Below, one piece after another: positions 31,077-63,480 of a stretch of DNA of 64,000 nt. Where the stretch lies: the NCBI RefSeq assembly GCF_032116555.1, contig NZ_CP134949.1, positions 1-64,000 on the forward strand, in the 5' to 3' direction. The stretch comes from Halobaculum sp. XH14. GTDB taxonomy: Archaea > Halobacteriota > Halobacteria > Halobacteriales > Haloferacaceae. How positions within the stretch are numbered: position 1 is the first letter of the stretch; every line of letters starts with the position of its first letter. Position numbers and translations under genes: made by a program. The notes under the pieces were generated by a model. That model saw only the letters and a program-made list of their open reading frames with translations. It did not search any database and had not been told where the DNA came from.

Positions 31077-31997
31077 CTACTCGCCGCCCGGGTACGTTCT
31101 GGAGAGGTCCTCGGCCACCGCCCCGCCGTCGCCGAACCCCTCCGTTTCGACTCCACCATCGCCGTCTTGCGGTTCCGTCCCTTCGACCGTCGCGGGGCTG
31201 ACGCTTCCCGTCCGGTACCCCTCCAGGTCGAGCGTGACGTGGTCGAACCCCAGATCGAGCAGGTGCTCGCGCGCTGCCGTCACGAACTCGGGGTCGAGCG
31301 CGGCGGCCAGTTCGTCAGCGCCGACCTCGATGCGGGCGAGGCCGTCGTGGTCGCGTACGCGGAACTGCGAGAACCCCCAGGTTCGGAGCATGCGCTCGGC
31401 GTTCTCGATGCGGGTCAGGCGCTCCTCGGTGACCTCGATGCCAGTCGGGATGCGTGAGGAGAGACACGCCATCGAGGGCTTGTCGGCCACGTCGAGGCCG
31501 TAGTGGGCGGCGATCTCGCGCACCTCGTCCTTGGTGATGGCGGCCTCCAGCAGCGGGGAGGCGACGTTCAGTTCCTCGACGGCCTGGAGCCCCGGCCGGT
31601 GGCCCTCGCCGGGGTCGGAGGCGTTCGTCCCGTCACAGACCGTCTCGATGCCGCGCTCGCGGGCCGCCTCGTACATCCGCGAGAGCCGCATCGTCCGGCA
31701 GTGGTAGCAGCGGTCCTCGCCGTTGGTCACGAACTCGGGGTCCTCGAGCTCGGAGAACGACACGACCGCGTGCTCGATGCCGATGTCGTCGGCGACCCGG
31801 CGGGCGTCCTCGAGTTCCGCCGCGGGCAGCGTCTCGCTCCGCGCGGTGCAGGCCACGGCGTCCTCGCCGAGCGCGGCGTGGGCGAGCGCGGCGACCACGC
31901 TGGAGTCCACGCCGCCCGAGAAGGCGACGAGCGCGCCATCGAGGGTGGCGAGCGACTCCTTTGCGGCGGCGGCCTTCGCCGCGACGTCGTCGTTCAT
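31077..31997 (-). CDS. larE: ATP-dependent sacrificial sulfur transferase LarE
   Basis: PP-loop enzyme that inserts sulfur into the pyridinium precursor of the nickel-pincer nucleotide of lactate racemase. 306 residues, with the PP-loop AFSGGVDSSVVAAL near residues 26-39, the RCYHCRTMRLSRMYE cysteine pair, and the C-terminal half PSMACLSSRIPTGIEVTEER. That motif holds a cysteine at about the place where other LarE proteins have the sacrificial one; CxxC-containing relatives may instead use a [4Fe-4S] cluster. larB and larC are not in the window, but a LarA-like protein is at 62188-63480. Confidence 0.88.
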   Translation of the reverse strand: MNDDVAAKAAAAKESLATLDGALVAFSGGVDSSVVAALAHAALGEDAVACTARSETLPAAELEDARRVADDIGIEHAVVSFSELEDPEFVTNGEDRCYHCRTMRLSRMYEAARERGIETVCDGTNASDPGEGHRPGLQAVEELNVASPLLEAAITKDEVREIAAHYGLDVADKPSMACLSSRIPTGIEVTEERLTRIENAERMLRTWGFSQFRVRDHDGLARIEVGADELAAALDPEFVTAAREHLLDLGFDHVTLDLEGYRTGSVSPATVEGTEPQDGDGGVETEGFGDGGAVAEDLSRTYPGGE

Positions 31998-55804: not shown

Positions 55805-56134
55805 GTGGCGTGGGTTCGGGTGGTCGGTTCTTAACGCCGCCGAAGGCGGATGCTGGTTCCGTTCGTCGTTCTCGGGGCGGCCGGTTTCGACGTCGTGGTC
55901 AGTTCAGTTGTCGTGGCGCACGCCTCGAAAACCCCCAGTCGTTCACGCCCAGTATCGTTTCGGCCTCGGCCACGACCGCATCGAAACGACGACCAACCGA
56001 CCGGAAGCGCCGACGGCCACGGCAGCTTTCGCGGTGGTCTCGACGCGATCAGTCGGATATCGTTCGGGGAAACCGGATCACGGCCATCGAAGCCGACGTC
56101 ACCATTGAATAGCCGCGAGCGCCCTCGATTCACC
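55805..56134. other. Divergent gap with repeat remnants
   Basis: About 330 bp between ahcY and the cupin gene. It holds a minus-strand remnant of the modular repeat at 55908-55938 and a fragment CAGCTTTCGCGGTGGT near 56020, similar to one at 48577-48593. The remainder is featureless; open frames through it lack domain content. Confidence 0.5.
55908..55938 (-). repeat. Remnant of the modular hairpin repeat (copy F)
   Basis: On the minus strand CTGGGGGTTTTCGAGGCGTG followed by CGCCACGACAA closely matches the right end of copy A (GGGCTTTCGAGG, GTGTGCGCCACGACAA). The upstream modules are lost. Confidence 0.55.
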
Positions 56135-56536
56135 ATGGAGCCAGTCGACTTCGAGGAGGCCGAGACGTACGAACCCGACGAGGGCTGGCAGCGCCGCGCG
56201 CTCGCCGGGAGCGACGAGTTCAGCTTCGAGTGGTTCGAGAAGCCGCCGGGCCACTCCTCGCCGATGCACGACCACGAGAACGAGCAGGTCTGTCTCGTGC
56301 TCCGCGGGGAACTCACAATCCACACCGATGACGACGCCGTGACGCTCGGGGAGTACGACTCGGTGCTGCTCGAATCGTGGGAGTCCCACCGCGTCGAGAA
56401 CACGGGCGAGGAACTCGCCGTCGGCCTCGACGTGTTCGCGCCGGGCCGCTCGTTCGACTTCTGGACCGACCGCGCGGACGGGGGCGACGAGGAGGACGGC
56501 GGCTCGGACGAGGCTGGATCGGGGGCCGACGGGTAG
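56135..56536 (+). CDS. Cupin-domain protein
   Basis: Single-domain cupin of 133 residues. Metal-binding motif 1 is SSPMHDHENEQVCLVLRGEL and motif 2 ESWESHRVENTGEEL; the tail is Asp/Gly-rich. Could be a sugar-binding or sugar-isomerising cupin, or a small dioxygenase. The stop is directly followed by the FAH gene ATG, so both belong to the same operon and probably the same pathway. Confidence 0.83.
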   Translation: MEPVDFEEAETYEPDEGWQRRALAGSDEFSFEWFEKPPGHSSPMHDHENEQVCLVLRGELTIHTDDDAVTLGEYDSVLLESWESHRVENTGEELAVGLDVFAPGRSFDFWTDRADGGDEEDGGSDEAGSGADG

Positions 56537-57367
56537 ATGCGGTATCTCGCCCGGACCGCGGACGGCCGGCCGCTCGTCGGCGACGACGAGGGGTTCGTCC
56601 CGCTCGCGGCCGCCTACCCCGACGCCGAGCGGGTCCGCGACGTCCTCCCGCGGGCGCCCGACGGCCTCCGCGACCTCGACGGGGTTCCCGCGGACCGGAC
56701 GCCGCGCGAAACCCTGTCGTTCGGCCCGTTCGTCGACGAGCCGGGCAAGCTGTTCGGCATCGGGCTGAACTACGCGGACCACGCCGCCGACCTCTCGGAG
56801 GACCCGCCCGAGGAGCCGGCCAGCTTCTTCAAGCCGGCCAGCGCGGCCACCGGGCCGGGCGGCCCCATCCGACTCCCGCCCGAACGCGGCTCCGAGGTCG
56901 CCGCCGAGCGGGTCACCGCCGAGGCGGAACTCGCGGTCGTGATCGGGCGGACGTGCCGGAACGTGGCCGTCGACGCGGTCGACGAGGTCGTCGCCGGGTT
57001 CGCGCCGGTCGTCGACGTGACCGCCGAGGACGTGCTCGAACGGAACCCCCGGTTCCTGACCCGGGCGAAGAGCTACGACACGTTCCTCGTGCTCAGCCCG
57101 CACCTCGCCGTCACCGGGCCCGGCACGGACCTCGAGGACGTCGAGGTGCGGACCGTCGTCAACGACGCCGTGGAGTCGCGAAACGTGGCGTCGAACATGC
57201 ACTTCTCGCCGCGCGAACTCGTGGCGTTCCACTCCGAGGTGATGACGCTCGAACCCGGCGACGTGATATCGACCGGGACGCCGGGCGCCCACCCCATCGA
57301 CCCCGGCGACCGCGTCCGCGCCGAGGTGGAGGGAATCGGGACGGTGGCCGCGGACGTCGTCAGGTGA
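56537..57367 (+). CDS. Fumarylacetoacetate hydrolase (FAH)-family enzyme
   Basis: 276 residues. The C-terminal FAH fold shows GKLFGIGLNYADHAADLSED, the metal-binding glutamates in VTAEAELAVVIGRTCRNVAV and the catalytic loop VDVTAEDVLERNPRFLTRAK, with SYDTFLVLSP. Members cleave 2,4-diketo acids or hydrate 2-keto-pentenoates. Next to a sugar ABC importer and an enolase-superfamily dehydratase, a 2,4-diketo-3-deoxy-sugar-acid hydrolase or a related step is the likeliest role, but the substrate is unproven. The first 75 residues form a small acidic leader domain. Confidence 0.85.
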   Translation: MRYLARTADGRPLVGDDEGFVPLAAAYPDAERVRDVLPRAPDGLRDLDGVPADRTPRETLSFGPFVDEPGKLFGIGLNYADHAADLSEDPPEEPASFFKPASAATGPGGPIRLPPERGSEVAAERVTAEAELAVVIGRTCRNVAVDAVDEVVAGFAPVVDVTAEDVLERNPRFLTRAKSYDTFLVLSPHLAVTGPGTDLEDVEVRTVVNDAVESRNVASNMHFSPRELVAFHSEVMTLEPGDVISTGTPGAHPIDPGDRVRAEVEGIGTVAADVVR

Positions 57368-57481
57368 GGACGGATTACTATTCAGTTGGTTACCAGATTA
57401 CGATAACTACCGTCCTGAGTTTCACTATGTCTATCTGACGCTGCAACAACTATATTACGGTATATGAGTAATTGGTGTGGT
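57368..57481 (+). promoter_or_regulatory. AT-rich promoter of the ABC operon with inverted repeats
   Basis: Strikingly AT-rich compared with its surroundings. TATA-like ACTATATTA sits at about 57449-57457, roughly 28 bases before the ATG at 57482. ATTAC-N9-GTAAT (57454-57472) overlaps it and extends towards the start, a plausible repressor site. GGACGG (57368-57373) and CCGTCC (57410-57415) form a wider inverted repeat just after the FAH stop. Confidence 0.5.
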
Positions 57482-59029
57482 ATGGCAGAACACAGCACGA
57501 ACAGGCGGACGTTCCTCGCCGCGACGGGCGTGACGGGGATGGGAGCACTGGCCGGCTGTGCCGGCTTCGGCGGCGGTGGCGGCGGCGGAGGGGGCAACGG
57601 TGACTTCCTCTCGACCGCCCAGCAGCTCGGCATCGCGGACAACTGGCAGCAGCGCCGGATCGGGGCCGCCGACGACTGGCCCATCGAGGCGCGGCGGGAG
57701 GTGCCCGAGCGCCAGAGCGCCACGACCTGGACCGACAGCGGGGCGTTCCAGAGCGCGGTCGAGAACGACGTGTGGACGCCGCCCGAGGGGTGGCAGGACA
57801 CCGCCGCGGGCGACGTGGAGACGCTGCAGATACTGAACCACGGCGCGGCGAACATGGAGTTCGACCCCGCGACGCTGGCCGCCCACGAGATGTTCACCGA
57901 GATCACCGGGATCGAACTCGACGTCATCGAGATCGGCGTCGACCAGGCGAACACGCGCGAGCAGCAGTTTCTCTCCTCGGAGGAGCCGAGCCCGCACGCG
58001 TTCAACGTCGACGGCATCCTCGTCCCGGTGTTCGTCGAGCAGGGCTACCTCGAGGCCACGGACGCTCTCTACCCGGAGGGCGGCTACGAGCCGTACATTC
58101 CGGCGCTCCAGAGCCTCGTCCAGTGGGACCTGGACCCCCAGTACGAGGGGACCCACACCTTCGGCTACCCGAACATCGGCGAGGCGAGCATGGGCCACCT
58201 GCGGCCGGACCTCATCGAGGAGCAGGGGATCGACCCCGAGCGGTTCCAGGGCGAGTGGTCCTGGGACCTCCTCGAGGAACTGGGCGAGGCGTTCGCGGGC
58301 ACCGACGTCAACGCGTTCGCGTACTACGCCGGCACCTCGACGTACCTTGCGTACTCGTTCCGGGAGCTGCTGTTCCAGCAGGGCGGGCGCATGGTTCAGG
58401 ACGACGGGACGGTCGTGATGAACTCGGACGCCGCCGTCCGGGTCATCCAGAAGATGCGGGACTGGCGCGACGCGGGCTACGTCCCCAGCGACGTCATCTC
58501 CTACGGCGAGGGGGACATCGTGGACCTGATGGCGTCGGGACAGCTCGCGTACACCACCGCGTTCAGCGACTTCGTCCCCCGGCTGCTCCAGGAGTACGAG
58601 CCCGGATCCCAGTACCAGGTGGTCGTCCCGCCGGCGGCCAACGCGGGCCCGTCGCCGACGCAGGCGGGGCTCGTCGCGCCGAACACGACGAGCATCAACC
58701 GCTTCTCGGACACGGGCCACAAGCTCGCCGCGATGCTGTACGGCGACCTGAAGCTGAGCTACTTCACCCAGTGGCTGGAGTTCACCTACGAGGGGAACAT
58801 CTCGTACATGGACCAGGTGTACACCGACTCCTCGGAGAACGACTTCGTCACGTTCGGCGGGGTGATGGGGAACGCCATCGAGAACGGCGTCCTCGAACTG
58901 TTCCCGCAGATGGCCTCGGTGTTCCAGCAGATGCTCTCGCCGGTCCAGCGTGCGATCCAGGGCTCGATCGAACCGCAGGCGGCCATGGACCAGGTGCAGG
59001 AGTTCGTGGACTCCGAGATCAACGAATGA
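57482..59029 (+). CDS. Sugar ABC transporter substrate-binding lipoprotein
   Basis: Extracytoplasmic binding protein of the carbohydrate-uptake CUT1 type, 515 residues. Signal MAEHSTNRRTFLAATGVTGM with lipobox LAGC (Cys26) means Tat export and lipid anchoring, then a Gly-rich linker. The two-lobed body has VETLQILNHGAANMEF and a C-terminal helix with QAAMDQVQEFVDSEI. It is longer than typical family members (about 420), with extra sequence at residues 45-110. First gene of the importer operon. Confidence 0.92.
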   Translation: MAEHSTNRRTFLAATGVTGMGALAGCAGFGGGGGGGGGNGDFLSTAQQLGIADNWQQRRIGAADDWPIEARREVPERQSATTWTDSGAFQSAVENDVWTPPEGWQDTAAGDVETLQILNHGAANMEFDPATLAAHEMFTEITGIELDVIEIGVDQANTREQQFLSSEEPSPHAFNVDGILVPVFVEQGYLEATDALYPEGGYEPYIPALQSLVQWDLDPQYEGTHTFGYPNIGEASMGHLRPDLIEEQGIDPERFQGEWSWDLLEELGEAFAGTDVNAFAYYAGTSTYLAYSFRELLFQQGGRMVQDDGTVVMNSDAAVRVIQKMRDWRDAGYVPSDVISYGEGDIVDLMASGQLAYTTAFSDFVPRLLQEYEPGSQYQVVVPPAANAGPSPTQAGLVAPNTTSINRFSDTGHKLAAMLYGDLKLSYFTQWLEFTYEGNISYMDQVYTDSSENDFVTFGGVMGNAIENGVLELFPQMASVFQQMLSPVQRAIQGSIEPQAAMDQVQEFVDSEINE

Positions 59030-59053: not shown

Positions 59054-60001
59054 ATGGCCACTGAGGAGTACGAGGGCGAAGTAGGCCCCCACGGCGGCGG
59101 CCTCACCGGCGCCGTCTCCGACTGGGTGAACGACCACATCCGGACGGTGCTGCTCGGCCCGTCGCTGGTGGCGCTGTTCGTCGTGTTCATCTACCCGGCG
59201 GTGATGTTGCTGTGGCTGTCGCTCCAGAACACCCGCGGCTTCGGCGAGACGTTCGAGCCCGCGTACAACTACGGGCGCATCTTCACCGACCCGACGTTCT
59301 GGAACGCGGTCGAGAAGACGCTGATCTACTCGTTCGGCTCGCTGTTCGTCTCGGTGAGCGCCGGGCTGGTCATCGCGCTCGCGCTGAACAAGCTGCTCAA
59401 CCAGCGGCTGCGTGACGCCTACTCGACGCTCATCCTCATCTCGTGGGCGGTGCCGCTGTCCATCGTCGGGGTCACCTGGCAGTGGATGTTCGACGGGCAG
59501 CTGGGGGTCGTCAACCAGGTCCTGGTCGATCTGGGAATCCTCGAAACCGGCTACTCCTGGCTCTCGAACTCCGTGTCCGCGATGGTCGTCGTCATCCTCG
59601 CGGACTCGTGGTCGCGCATCCCGTTCGCGACCATCGTGCTGCTCGCGGGGCTCCAGTCGATTCCCCAGGACATGTACGACGCCGCCAAGACCGACGGCGC
59701 GACGACCTGGCAGACGTTCCGGCACGTCACGCTGCCGTACCTCCGGCCGTCGTTCTTCGTCGCGGGACTCATCACCTGGATGTTCGCGTTCCGCGCGTTC
59801 GCCATCCCGTACTCGACGACGGGCGGCGGGCCGGGCGGCGCGACCGAGACCCTCGCCATCTACATCCACCGCTTCGGCATCCAGCTGCTCGACTACGGGT
59901 TCGCCTCCGCGGTCTCGGTGTTCCTCGTCGCGGTGACGCTCGTCGTCGCGACGGCGTACGTCTACTTCATCCTCGAACAGATGGAGGAGATCGAGGTCTG
60001 A
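59054..60001 (+). CDS. Sugar ABC transporter permease (MalF/UgpA type)
   Basis: Six-helix permease of 315 residues with an N-terminal helix (LLGPSLVALFVVFIYPAVML). The coupling-helix EAA motif that contacts the ATPase reads DMYDAAKTDGATTWQTFRHVTLP near residue 215-235. 24 bp after the binding-protein gene. Confidence 0.93.
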   Translation: MATEEYEGEVGPHGGGLTGAVSDWVNDHIRTVLLGPSLVALFVVFIYPAVMLLWLSLQNTRGFGETFEPAYNYGRIFTDPTFWNAVEKTLIYSFGSLFVSVSAGLVIALALNKLLNQRLRDAYSTLILISWAVPLSIVGVTWQWMFDGQLGVVNQVLVDLGILETGYSWLSNSVSAMVVVILADSWSRIPFATIVLLAGLQSIPQDMYDAAKTDGATTWQTFRHVTLPYLRPSFFVAGLITWMFAFRAFAIPYSTTGGGPGGATETLAIYIHRFGIQLLDYGFASAVSVFLVAVTLVVATAYVYFILEQMEEIEV

Positions 60002-60002
60002 C

Positions 60003-60872
60003 ATGGCGGGAGCGGAGTTCGGCCTGGACCAGTACCGGCGACGACAGCGGCTCTGGGACGCCGTGGAGAGCCGCTACGTCGTTCACCTCGTGCTGTTCGC
60101 GGCGGTGTTTTTCGCGATCTCGCCGCTGGTGTGGCAGCTCCTCACGTCGTTCAAGACCCAGCAGGGCGTGCTCGCGCTGACGTACCTGCCGCTTGACCCG
60201 ACGCTGGCCGCCTACGAGCGGGCGCTGATCGACCGCGGGTTCTGGCGCGCGGTCGTGAACAGCGTCATCATCGCCTCCGCGTCGACGGCGATCGTGATGG
60301 TGCTCGGGACGCCGGCCGGCTACGTGTTCAGCCGGTTCCGCTTCCCGTTCGACAACGCCGTGTTCGTGTTCGTCCTGTTCACGCGGTTGTTCCCGCCGAT
60401 CGGGCTGGTGACGCCGTACTACCGGATCATGACGACGACCGGGCTGTTGAACACGAAGACGGGCATCGTCATCGCGAACGTCTACCTCTGGCTCCCGCTG
60501 GTCATCTACATCATGCGGAACTTCTTCATCACCATCCCCCAGTCGCTCGACGAGGCGGCCAGGGTTGACGGCTGCACGAAGATCCAGGCGTTCTGGCACG
60601 TCGTGTTCCCCGTCGTCCTGCCCGGCTTCGCCGCGGGGACCATCCTCACCTTCCTCTACTCCTGGCGGGAGTTCCTGTTCGCGTTCACCGTCAGCACCGA
60701 CCTCACCTCGATGACCATCCCCGTGGCGACGTTCCTGTTCGTCGGGGACGCCGGCATCGACTGGGCGGCGATGGCCGCCGCCTCCATCGTCTCGGTCATC
60801 CCGTCGGCGCTGGTGGTGGTCTTCTTCCAGCGGTACATCGTCGTCGGCATGACGGGAGGGCTGAAGGGATGA
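60003..60872 (+). CDS. Sugar ABC transporter permease (MalG/UgpE type)
   Basis: Six-helix permease of 289 residues. EAA motif SLDEAARVDGCTKIQAFWHV at about 180-200. Starts one base after the preceding stop, so it is translated with its partner. Ends GMTGGLKG, as is typical of MalG-type permeases. Confidence 0.93.
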   Translation: MAGAEFGLDQYRRRQRLWDAVESRYVVHLVLFAAVFFAISPLVWQLLTSFKTQQGVLALTYLPLDPTLAAYERALIDRGFWRAVVNSVIIASASTAIVMVLGTPAGYVFSRFRFPFDNAVFVFVLFTRLFPPIGLVTPYYRIMTTTGLLNTKTGIVIANVYLWLPLVIYIMRNFFITIPQSLDEAARVDGCTKIQAFWHVVFPVVLPGFAAGTILTFLYSWREFLFAFTVSTDLTSMTIPVATFLFVGDAGIDWAAMAAASIVSVIPSALVVVFFQRYIVVGMTGGLKG

Positions 60873-60966: not shown

Positions 60967-62166
60967 ATGAGCGACACAGCAGGACCCAAAGCGGACGAGC
61001 GGACGACCCAACCGACCGATCGCGACGTCAGCCTCGAACTCAGGGACGTCACCAAGACGTTCACCGAGGACGACGGCTCGACCGTCGTCGCGGTCGAGGA
61101 CCTGGACCTGACGATCTACGACGGGGAGTTCGTCGTGATCGTCGGCCCGTCGGGCTGTGGAAAGACCACGACGTTGCGGATGATCGCCGGCCTCGAGGAG
61201 CCGACCGAGGGGGACGTCGTCATCGAGGGACGCGACGTGGCGGGGCTCGACCCCCGCGAGCGCGACATCGCGATGGTGTTCCAGAACTACGCGCTCTACC
61301 CCCACAAGACGGTCCGGGAGAACATCGCGTTCCCGCTCCGGATCCGGAAGTTCCCGGACGAGGAGGTCGAGGGGCGCGTCGAGGACGTCGCCCGGTCGCT
61401 CGACATCCCGGAACTGCTCGAGCGCCGCCCGTCGGAGCTCTCGGGCGGCCAGCAGCAGCGGGTCGCGCTCGGGCGCGCAATCGTGCGCGACCCGGCGGTG
61501 TTCCTGTTCGACGAGCCGCTGTCGAACCTCGACGCGAAGCTCCGCATCGAGATGCGGACCGAGCTGAACAAACTCCACGACCGCGTCGGGAAGACGTCGG
61601 TGTACGTCACCCACGACCAGGTCGAGGCGATGACGCTCTCGGACCGCGTCGTCGTGCTCGACGACGGGCGGCTCCAGCAGTTCGCGCCGCCCCAGGAGCT
61701 GTACGGCGCCCCCGCCAACAAGTTCGTCGCGGGCTTCATCGGCGAGCCGCCGATGAACTTCTTCGCCGCCCGCGTCGAGGAGCGCGGCGGCGACTGGTGG
61801 GTCGTCTCCGACGCGTTCGAACTCCGCCTGCCCGACGAGCACGACGCGAAACTCCGGGAGTGGACCGGCGACCTCGAGAACGCCGAGTTCGGCGTCCGAC
61901 CGGAGCACCTGTTCGACGTCGCCGTGGAGGGCGACCCCGGCGAGGGAGCGACGTTCGACGCGCTGGTGAAGGTGATCGAACCGATGGGGCCACACATGGA
62001 CGTCACCGTCGCGCCGTCGGAGCGGCCCGACGACGAGGACGCCGAGTTCACCGCGCGGGTGTCGAACGAGAGCGACGTGGCCACCGAGAGCCGGGTCACG
62101 CTCGGCGTCGAACTGGACAAGGCACACCTGTTCGACGGCCGGACCGGCGAGAACGTCCTCCGGTAG
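60967..62166 (+). CDS. Sugar ABC transporter ATP-binding protein (UgpC/MalK type)
   Basis: ATPase of the importer, 399 residues. Walker A GPSGCGKT at 60-67, signature LSGGQQQRVALGRA, Walker B VFLFDEPLSNLD, switch histidine in YVTHDQVEAM. The C-terminal TOBE/regulatory domain (from about 245) shows GVRPEHLFDVAVEGDPGEGA and ends DKAHLFDGRTGENVL, typical of the MalK/UgpC group that can serve several sugars. 94 bp separates it from the permease genes; that gap looks non-coding. Confidence 0.93.
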   Translation: MSDTAGPKADERTTQPTDRDVSLELRDVTKTFTEDDGSTVVAVEDLDLTIYDGEFVVIVGPSGCGKTTTLRMIAGLEEPTEGDVVIEGRDVAGLDPRERDIAMVFQNYALYPHKTVRENIAFPLRIRKFPDEEVEGRVEDVARSLDIPELLERRPSELSGGQQQRVALGRAIVRDPAVFLFDEPLSNLDAKLRIEMRTELNKLHDRVGKTSVYVTHDQVEAMTLSDRVVVLDDGRLQQFAPPQELYGAPANKFVAGFIGEPPMNFFAARVEERGGDWWVVSDAFELRLPDEHDAKLREWTGDLENAEFGVRPEHLFDVAVEGDPGEGATFDALVKVIEPMGPHMDVTVAPSERPDDEDAEFTARVSNESDVATESRVTLGVELDKAHLFDGRTGENVLR

Positions 62167-62187: not shown

Positions 62188-63480
62188 TCACTCCGCCGGT
62201 TCGAACGACGGCTCGCCGTCCACGAACGAGAGTTCCTCCGGTCCCTCCACGACGACGCCCTCGGGCGGGTCGCGCGCGAGCGCCTCGGAGACGCGGAACG
62301 ACGACAGCGACGCGGTGTCCCGGATCCAGGCGACGCGGACGTCCGCCGGGTCGTAGGTCCCGACGGTGGAGAGCGCGGCCGTCAGCGCCCGCTCGTCGTC
62401 CGGGAGGACGACCGGGAGCTTCGCCTTGCTGAGCGACCCGCTCGTCAGCGCGTTCGTGTACACCTGGTCGAGGTCGAGTTCATCGGCGACCGCGCGGGTC
62501 GTCACGTCCGCCAGCCCGATGCCGTTGCCGTTGCCGTGGGTCGCCTCCGTCAGCCCCCGCACGACGATGCGCTTGATGTCGGGCAGCGCCGGGTCCTCGG
62601 CGTTCAGCACGCTGTACCGGCCGACGACGTTCGTGTCCATCCCCGCGCCGGAGACGTCCTTGCCGATCTCGTCGACGACGAGCACGTCGAGGTCGTCGAA
62701 CGGGAGCGTCGGCATGTACTCGTCGGCCCGCTCCAGCAGCGGCTCCTCCGCGTCGGGGAGCGCCGACGCGGGCACGCCCTCGACGTGGGCCGTCCGGTCG
62801 TGGAAGTTCTCAACGACGGCGAGGCCCCCCAGCAGCGGCGTCTCGGCGCGGACGACGTCGTAGGCCGCGGCGATGACGGGTACGTACCCCTCGACGAGCG
62901 CGTGCTCGTGGGCCGCCTTCGCGCCTGGCTGTTTGCCCAGCCCGATGGTCGCCATCTTCGTCAGCCCGCTCTCGAACCGGCCGGTGAAGTTGGTGTGGGC
63001 CTTCACGCGGTTGATCACGAGGACCCCGTCGGCCTCCAGGGCGGCCGTCGAGAACGGCACCGTCGCGCCGACCGCGGAGTCGCCGAGGTCGGTCGTGTCC
63101 ATCCGCGCGTCGATCGGACAGCCGAGTGCGTCCTCGGTCAGCCCGATGCCGGCGAGCGTCCGCCGCTGGCCCTCGGCGGTCGCGCCGCCGTGGCTCCCCA
63201 TCGCCGGCACGACGAACGGCTCGAAGCCGCGACGTGCCAGTTCGTCGATCACGGCCCGTGCTGCTGGAACGACGTCGTGGATGCCACGGCTCCCCAGCCC
63301 GACCGCGACGCTCCCCCCCGGGGGGACGTCGCCGAGCGGGAGTTCGTCCACCTCCGCGCGGGTCCTCCCCTCGACGTCGTCGAGTTCGGGCGTCTCCGGC
63401 TCGTACCGCACCGACGCGAACCGGGGGAGGGTCGGTCGGCCGAGCGCCGCGTCGACGACATCGGCGTCCGGGAATCGCAT
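62188..63480 (-). CDS. LarA-like (DUF2088) nickel-pincer-type protein
   Basis: Homologue of lactate racemase LarA, 430 residues from MRFPDADVVDAALGRPTLPR. The N-terminal Rossmann-like domain has VGLGSRGIHDVVPAARAV and PAMGSHGGATAEGQ. The pincer-lysine/histidine region reads VKAHTNFTGRFESGLTKMAT, where LarA has the catalytic H and the lysine that carries the cofactor. This subgroup usually acts on other 2-hydroxy acids or is uncharacterised. LarE at 31077-31997 could supply the cofactor. Converges on the ABC operon and diverges from the enolase-superfamily gene. Confidence 0.85.
   Translation of the reverse strand: MRFPDADVVDAALGRPTLPRFASVRYEPETPELDDVEGRTRAEVDELPLGDVPPGGSVAVGLGSRGIHDVVPAARAVIDELARRGFEPFVVPAMGSHGGATAEGQRRTLAGIGLTEDALGCPIDARMDTTDLGDSAVGATVPFSTAALEADGVLVINRVKAHTNFTGRFESGLTKMATIGLGKQPGAKAAHEHALVEGYVPVIAAAYDVVRAETPLLGGLAVVENFHDRTAHVEGVPASALPDAEEPLLERADEYMPTLPFDDLDVLVVDEIGKDVSGAGMDTNVVGRYSVLNAEDPALPDIKRIVVRGLTEATHGNGNGIGLADVTTRAVADELDLDQVYTNALTSGSLSKAKLPVVLPDDERALTAALSTVGTYDPADVRVAWIRDTASLSSFRVSEALARDPPEGVVVEGPEELSFVDGEPSFEPAE

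Follow-up and report, generated by a model that had tools for sequence, protein, structure and literature searches.

A predicted nickel-pincer-dependent sugar-acid C2-epimerase of LarA homologue group 22 in a haloarchaeal sugar-acid locus

Near the end of the window, the whole 64-kb stretch of haloarchaeal DNA analysed here, lies a gene for a homologue of the lactate racemase LarA, surrounded by genes for sugar-type transport and for putative sugar-acid enzymes (Table 1). Its end and an ABC sugar-type transporter operon are 21 bp apart; that operon is itself preceded by an FAH-family gene, and the transporter genes thus separate the FAH gene from the larA homologue. Across a gap of 125 bp, a gene of the enolase superfamily (MR/MLE) is transcribed divergently from the larA homologue, followed by a second MR/MLE gene. 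The full-length product of the divergent gene had L-talarate/galactarate dehydratase as its best NCBIfam match (269 bits, under the cut-off of 500), and the neighbouring enolase-type dehydratases fall below every curated NCBIfam cut-off. Relatives of the FAH protein include members of the diketo-deoxyrhamnonate hydrolase family and, in the PDB, L-2,4-diketo-3-deoxyrhamnonate hydrolase (8GSR). The initial annotation had described a LarA-like protein with FAH and enolase-superfamily dehydratase genes nearby and with LarE encoded in the same window, and profile searches bear out each of these assignments. No SDR gene accompanies the larA homologue in the 64-kb window; the closest SDR relatives in the genome are at C1:205205-205996 (72%) and C3:114306-115094. 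A Cupin_2 protein is encoded immediately before the FAH gene (55850-56536, plus strand, with a listed start that may be too far upstream) and possibly belongs to the same operon.

Table 1. Genes of the locus and residues of the LarA homologue, in window coordinates
Feature	Position	Strand	Evidence or remark
larA homologue, group 22, 430 aa	62188-63480	minus	ATG at 63480; predicted NPN-dependent C2-epimerase
R65, likely Arg75 equivalent (cofactor phosphate)	63286-63288	minus	spacing; 82/82 invariant
H97, catalytic His108 equivalent	63190-63192	minus	hhalign alignment; 82/82 invariant
H162, catalytic His174 equivalent	62995-62997	minus	hhalign alignment; 82/82 invariant; followed by Thr-Asn
K175, Lys184 equivalent (covalent cofactor link)	62956-62958	minus	hhalign alignment; 82/82 invariant
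H191, His200 equivalent (nickel ligand)	62908-62910	minus	spacing; 82/82 invariant
larE (sulfur insertase for cofactor), CXXC-C type	31077-31997	minus	TIGR00268, 293.7 bits, cut-off 150
FAH-family hydrolase/dehydratase	56537-57367	plus	PF01557, E 2.4e-52
ABC transporter solute-binding protein	57464-59029	plus	PF01547, E 8.2e-10
ABC sugar-type permease 1	59054-60001	plus	operon ORF; local HMM groups with CUT1-type permeases
ABC sugar-type permease 2	60003-60872	plus	operon ORF; local HMM groups with CUT1-type permeases
MalK/UgpC-type ATPase	60967-62166	plus	PRK11650 UgpC, 432.8 bits, cut-off 432
Enolase-superfamily (MR/MLE) sugar-acid dehydratase-like	63606-64709, past window end 64000	plus	PF02746, E 1.9e-20

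The larA homologue is a member of the LarA superfamily and belongs to nickel-pincer (NPN) isomerase group 22. It matched NCBIfam NF052515 (nickel pincer cofactor-dependent isomerase, group 22, a number that follows Desguin et al. 2020, PMC7583248) at 501.7 bits against a cut-off of 400, over profile positions 1-387 of 392 and hence at full length. The Pfam Lar_N profile gave 17.4 bits, under its cut-off of 23.3, as did DUF362 (PF04015), under a gathering cut-off of 24, and a Lar_N search of the organism's own genome returned no match at E <= 0.001. Scores of group 22 do not exceed the Lar_N cut-off, and Lar_N alone would therefore overlook the gene. Neither the protein nor its profile of 30 sequences matched any PDB sequence, and LarA membership therefore rests on NCBIfam, on the fold and on profile-profile comparison. 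An AF2 model built from 63 aligned relatives (mean pLDDT 93.9) was searched against the PDB with Foldseek, and all 16 significant matches were LarA-family proteins. With VIA-align, 12 LarA-family entries (among them lactate racemase, malate racemase, a broad-spectrum LarA, the single-histidine LarA homologues and 4nar, GntE2) stood at Z 18.7-21.2, while the next, unrelated chain reached 6.2; the match covers model residues from about 17 to 392, the full length of the two-domain fold.

Relative to the 81%-identical orthologue of Halobonum tyrrellensis, 54 of 428 codons differ at position 1, 44 at position 2 and 151 at position 3, and this dominance of third-position differences indicates that the frame is under selection as a protein. 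The same pattern rules out a chance ORF and identifies the plus-strand ORF overlying the gene as a shadow. A second group-22 paralogue, 46% identical to the first, is encoded at C1:362956-364233. This clade-B gene (loci L171 and L123) sits in a sugar-acid island (G000:C1:346-370 kb) in which MR/MLE and FAH genes are each represented twice, alongside one DapA-like gene, IclR and an ABC transporter of CUT1 type.

Active-site conservation was assessed across 82 archaeal and bacterial sequences of group 22, and R65, H97, R158, K160, H162, K175 and H191 were invariant in all of them. Equivalences were drawn with hhalign against canonical haloarchaeal LarAs, which were linked in turn to L. plantarum LarA by phmmer. 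H191 falls in a gap of that alignment, and its equivalence to His200 rests on the spacing of 16 residues from K175, which holds throughout the 82 sequences and recurs in LarA (K184/H200), Mar2 (K181/H197) and GntE2 (K164/H180) (PMC7583248). R65 likely corresponds to Arg75 of LarA as judged by spacing: 32 residues separate it from the first histidine, versus 33 in L. plantarum LarA, and hhalign alone places it two residues off.

Around this conserved core, group 22 departs from LarA at several positions. The residue three before the arginine, where an equivalent of Asp72 was sought, is Val, Ala or Leu in 80 of 82 sequences (Ser by hhalign), and residues 58-67 include no conserved acid. The larA homologue is accordingly not placed in the LarA, Mar or GntE activity groups. 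A three-residue insertion leaves 13 rather than 10 residues from the catalytic histidine to the cofactor lysine. Near the place of Lys298, K274 is invariant and R288 is present in 77 of 82 sequences; the hhalign alignment does not extend to the C-domain. The second catalytic histidine is followed by Thr and then by D, N, A, G, S, R or M in 81 of 82 sequences, the larA homologue itself having Thr-Asn. This loop has been linked to substrate type, being Phe-Phe in LarA and Glu-Ser in GntE2 (PMC7583248).

The initial annotation had considered the histidines and lysine for the nickel-pincer cofactor to be conserved, and had named loss of the lysine in orthologues, or absence of larB and larC, as grounds for giving up a pincer enzyme. 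H97, H162, K175 and H191 are kept in all 82 relatives, and both genes were found when the genome outside the window was searched, larB at C1:196539-197183 and larC at C1:940175-941536. LarE of the window contains a CXXC motif (Cys97, Cys100) together with Cys178. Such a pattern of CXXC plus a further cysteine has been linked to [4Fe-4S]-dependent sulfur insertion that is catalytic and not sacrificial (PMC9283937). No canonical Lar_N protein is present in this genome, which leaves its two group-22 paralogues as the sole cofactor users recognised there.

Across the class, group 22 is present in 129 of 292 haloarchaeal genomes. LarC was detected in 127 of these 129, versus 118 of the 163 genomes that lack group 22 (Fisher p 9e-11, with relatedness not removed), and LarC occurs with group 22 and with no canonical LarA in 110 of the 292. 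In one of the two LarC exceptions (G234), larB and larE adjoin the group-22 gene on a 5.8-kb contig, and larC may merely be encoded outside it. The other genome, G093, is 99% complete and has no larB, larC or LarE over the cut-off, though its group-22 gene is intact. Its locus (L165, G093:C1:1533300-1553200) carries a full module of two MR/MLE genes, the larA homologue, SDR, FAH and a TAXI-TRAP transporter, with active-site residues intact. In six of the Bacillota-type loci collected (L065, L083, L085, L095, L106 and L111), larE, larC or both are no more than 10 kb away from the group-22 gene. LarC without either group 22 or canonical LarA was observed in 64 of the 292 class genomes, which may hold other, unrecognised nickel-pincer clients.

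The gene context of group 22 was surveyed in loci drawn from a scan of GTDB genomes and from the class genomes, with all frames searched by local HMMs, and 20 random 20-kb haloarchaeal stretches served as the control. Among 33 clade-A loci, MR/MLE genes were found in 20, FAH in 20, SDR in 19 and TRAP/TAXI transporters in 11, and an MR/MLE dehydratase occurred together with FAH within 10 kb in 19. The Bacillota/Bathyarchaeota branch (n = 19) has a different complement, with IlvD/Edd in 12 loci, TRAP in 12, FAH in 11, GarD-like/SAF in 10 and KGSADH in 9; a dehydratase (IlvD/Edd or GarD-like) and FAH were found together, likewise within 10 kb, in 11 of the 19, and the KGSADH of these Bacillota operons scored 863 bits against a cut-off of 770. 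None of the 20 random stretches contained MR/MLE, IlvD/Edd, GarD-like or FAH genes. The enzyme families persist across group-22 loci while arrangement and transporter type vary, although the loci share descent and are not independent. A protein of about 315 residues (cluster c15, L111:11453-12397 and relatives) is a conserved neighbour in the Bacillota operons and matched neither Pfam nor NCBIfam under the thresholds applied.

Sugar-acid context was seen in only 1 of 32 of the most distant group-22 members, those of planctomycetes, Latescibacterota and Poribacteria. In seven Latescibacterota/Gemmatimonadota loci (L056, L058, L063, L079, L080, L096 and L099), the group-22 gene follows one for an iron-dependent alcohol dehydrogenase. 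This setting differs from the sugar-acid one, and group 22 may therefore not be uniform in function.

Two non-phosphorylative pathways provide a framework for these gene sets. In Route II, a 2-keto-3-deoxy acid is converted to 2-oxoglutarate, with KGSADH acting last; in Route III, SDR and an FAH hydrolase lead to pyruvate and glycolate or lactate (PMC6336799). By analogy, the Bacillota operons, with IlvD/Edd, GarD-like, FAH and KGSADH proteins, look like Route II, and the haloarchaeal sets of MR/MLE, SDR and FAH look like Route III. The sugar acid is the only class of compound with a C2-hydroxyl stereocentre that is common to both routes, which makes a C2-epimerase the simplest reading. We therefore favor, as the probable function of the larA homologue, NPN-dependent C2-epimerisation of a sugar acid (an aldonate or a related compound) that feeds a sugar-acid dehydratase. 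Loading with NPN, epimerisation and the class of substrate are each predicted from family, fold, the invariant residues, the cofactor genes and gene context. The context counts (19/33 and 11/19 versus 0/20), from which the substrate is inferred, strengthen the initial annotation's proposal of a sugar-derived 2-hydroxy acid, and not lactate, as substrate.

Under the proposed mechanism, NPN would be made by LarB, LarE and LarC encoded in the same genome, tethered by K175 and bound through its nickel by H191. The C2 hydride of the sugar acid would pass to the cofactor by proton-coupled hydride transfer, giving a transient 2-keto acid, and would return to the opposite face so that C2 is inverted, with H97 and H162 as the presumed acid/base pair. 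The epimer could then serve as substrate for the divergent enolase-superfamily dehydratase or dehydratases, and the remainder of the non-phosphorylative route would fall to a C4 dehydrogenase, which in relatives is the SDR, and to the FAH enzyme.

The products of Route III suggest a different role, that of an NPN-dependent racemase of a small end-product 2-hydroxy acid (lactate, a glycolate-type acid or glycerate), and D-2-hydroxyacid dehydrogenase-like genes do lie near 12 of the 33 clade-A and 8 of the 19 Bacillota-branch loci. We consider this unlikely: the Bacillota operons with KGSADH should finish at 2-oxoglutarate, a compound other than a 2-hydroxy acid, yet they contain the same enzyme; moreover, the group-22 gene adjoins the dehydratases, small and polar residues make up the substrate loop, and the named neighbour clusters include neither a lactate permease nor a lactate oxidase family. 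The departures in the active site (the absent Asp72 equivalent, the unclear Lys298 equivalent and the conserved three-residue insertion) could alternatively signify that the protein uses NPN for some other, or one-way, hydride transfer on a sugar acid with no reversible epimerisation at C2; the authors of PMC7583248 suggested that other hydride chemistry may occur in LarA homologues without catalytic residues. To this we assign a low probability, given that both histidines of the two-base mechanism are present in 82 of 82 sequences, unlike the single-histidine subfamily (PMC12611868). That the protein is a DUF362-like relative sharing the N-terminal fold and no NPN enzyme at all, as its identical subthreshold Lar_N and DUF362 scores and the module of G093 without cofactor genes might suggest, is very improbable in view of its full-length LarA fold, the nickel histidine and NPN lysine at exact spacing, and the association with cofactor genes both across genomes (LarC in 127/129) and in gene clusters with larB, larC or larE.

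Sugar-acid C2-epimerisation, the reading we prefer, has a close precedent in the D-gluconate 2-epimerases GntE1 and GntE2 (groups 19 and 20). The larA homologue shares with them the fold (4nar, Z 18.7), the K-H spacing of 16, a sugar-acid context and small polar residues behind the catalytic histidine. It differs in belonging to another branch, with no GntE model among its matches, in having no Asp72 equivalent, in its three-residue insertion and in its neighbour genes. L. plantarum LarA (5HUQ/6C1W) is likewise similar in fold (Z 19.4-19.5) and in both catalytic histidines, the NPN lysine and the nickel histidine, but identity is about 13%, Thr-Asn/Asp in group 22 replaces the Phe-Phe of LarA, and the larA homologue has neither Asp72 nor a lactate gene context. 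Lactate racemase was rejected as its function on the basis of the absent lactate genes and the different loop. A carbohydrate-linked subfamily without the second histidine has been described (PMC12611868), and its members LarABw and LarASp resemble the larA homologue in fold (Z 19.9-20.6) and in carbohydrate gene context; they have Asn at the second catalytic position, however, where the larA homologue has H162, and the presence of both histidines rules out assignment to that subfamily. Routes II and III share with the group-22 loci the acid-sugar dehydratase, SDR, FAH and KGSADH families, but as described in PMC6336799 they involve no nickel-pincer step.

Group 22 already has an NCBIfam name, one that assigns no substrate, and its fold is known; the larA homologue joins a known family. 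Twenty-five groups of LarA homologues were defined and 13 proteins assayed, none of them from group 22 (PMC7583248); nine further homologues were added by PMC11770544, in the text of which group 22 was not found. We found no assayed group-22 member in the literature, and Supplementary Table S1 of PMC7583248, a list of contexts by group, may already note that of group 22. What is added here is the link to the cofactor genes, the active-site departures and the argument from Routes II and III for a sugar-acid substrate. More tentatively, there is some chance that group 22 contributes a hitherto unrecognised reaction, dependent on nickel, to non-phosphorylative sugar-acid catabolism in Bacillota and archaea. 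With its modified active site (the Asp72 equivalent absent, the three-residue insertion conserved and perhaps a different Lys), it would catalyse either C2-epimerisation of aldonates/aldarates or a related hydride-transfer isomerisation that would be new for NPN. Gene context leaves a small number of sugar acids as candidate substrates, and growth on them is predicted to require nickel.

Group 22 is common in haloarchaea, given its frequency in the 292 genomes sampled. Haloferax volcanii has larB, larC and larE, and the client of its cofactor was left open (PMC8305020); a Haloferax genome carries a group-22 match, which makes group 22 a candidate nickel-pincer client in Haloferax.
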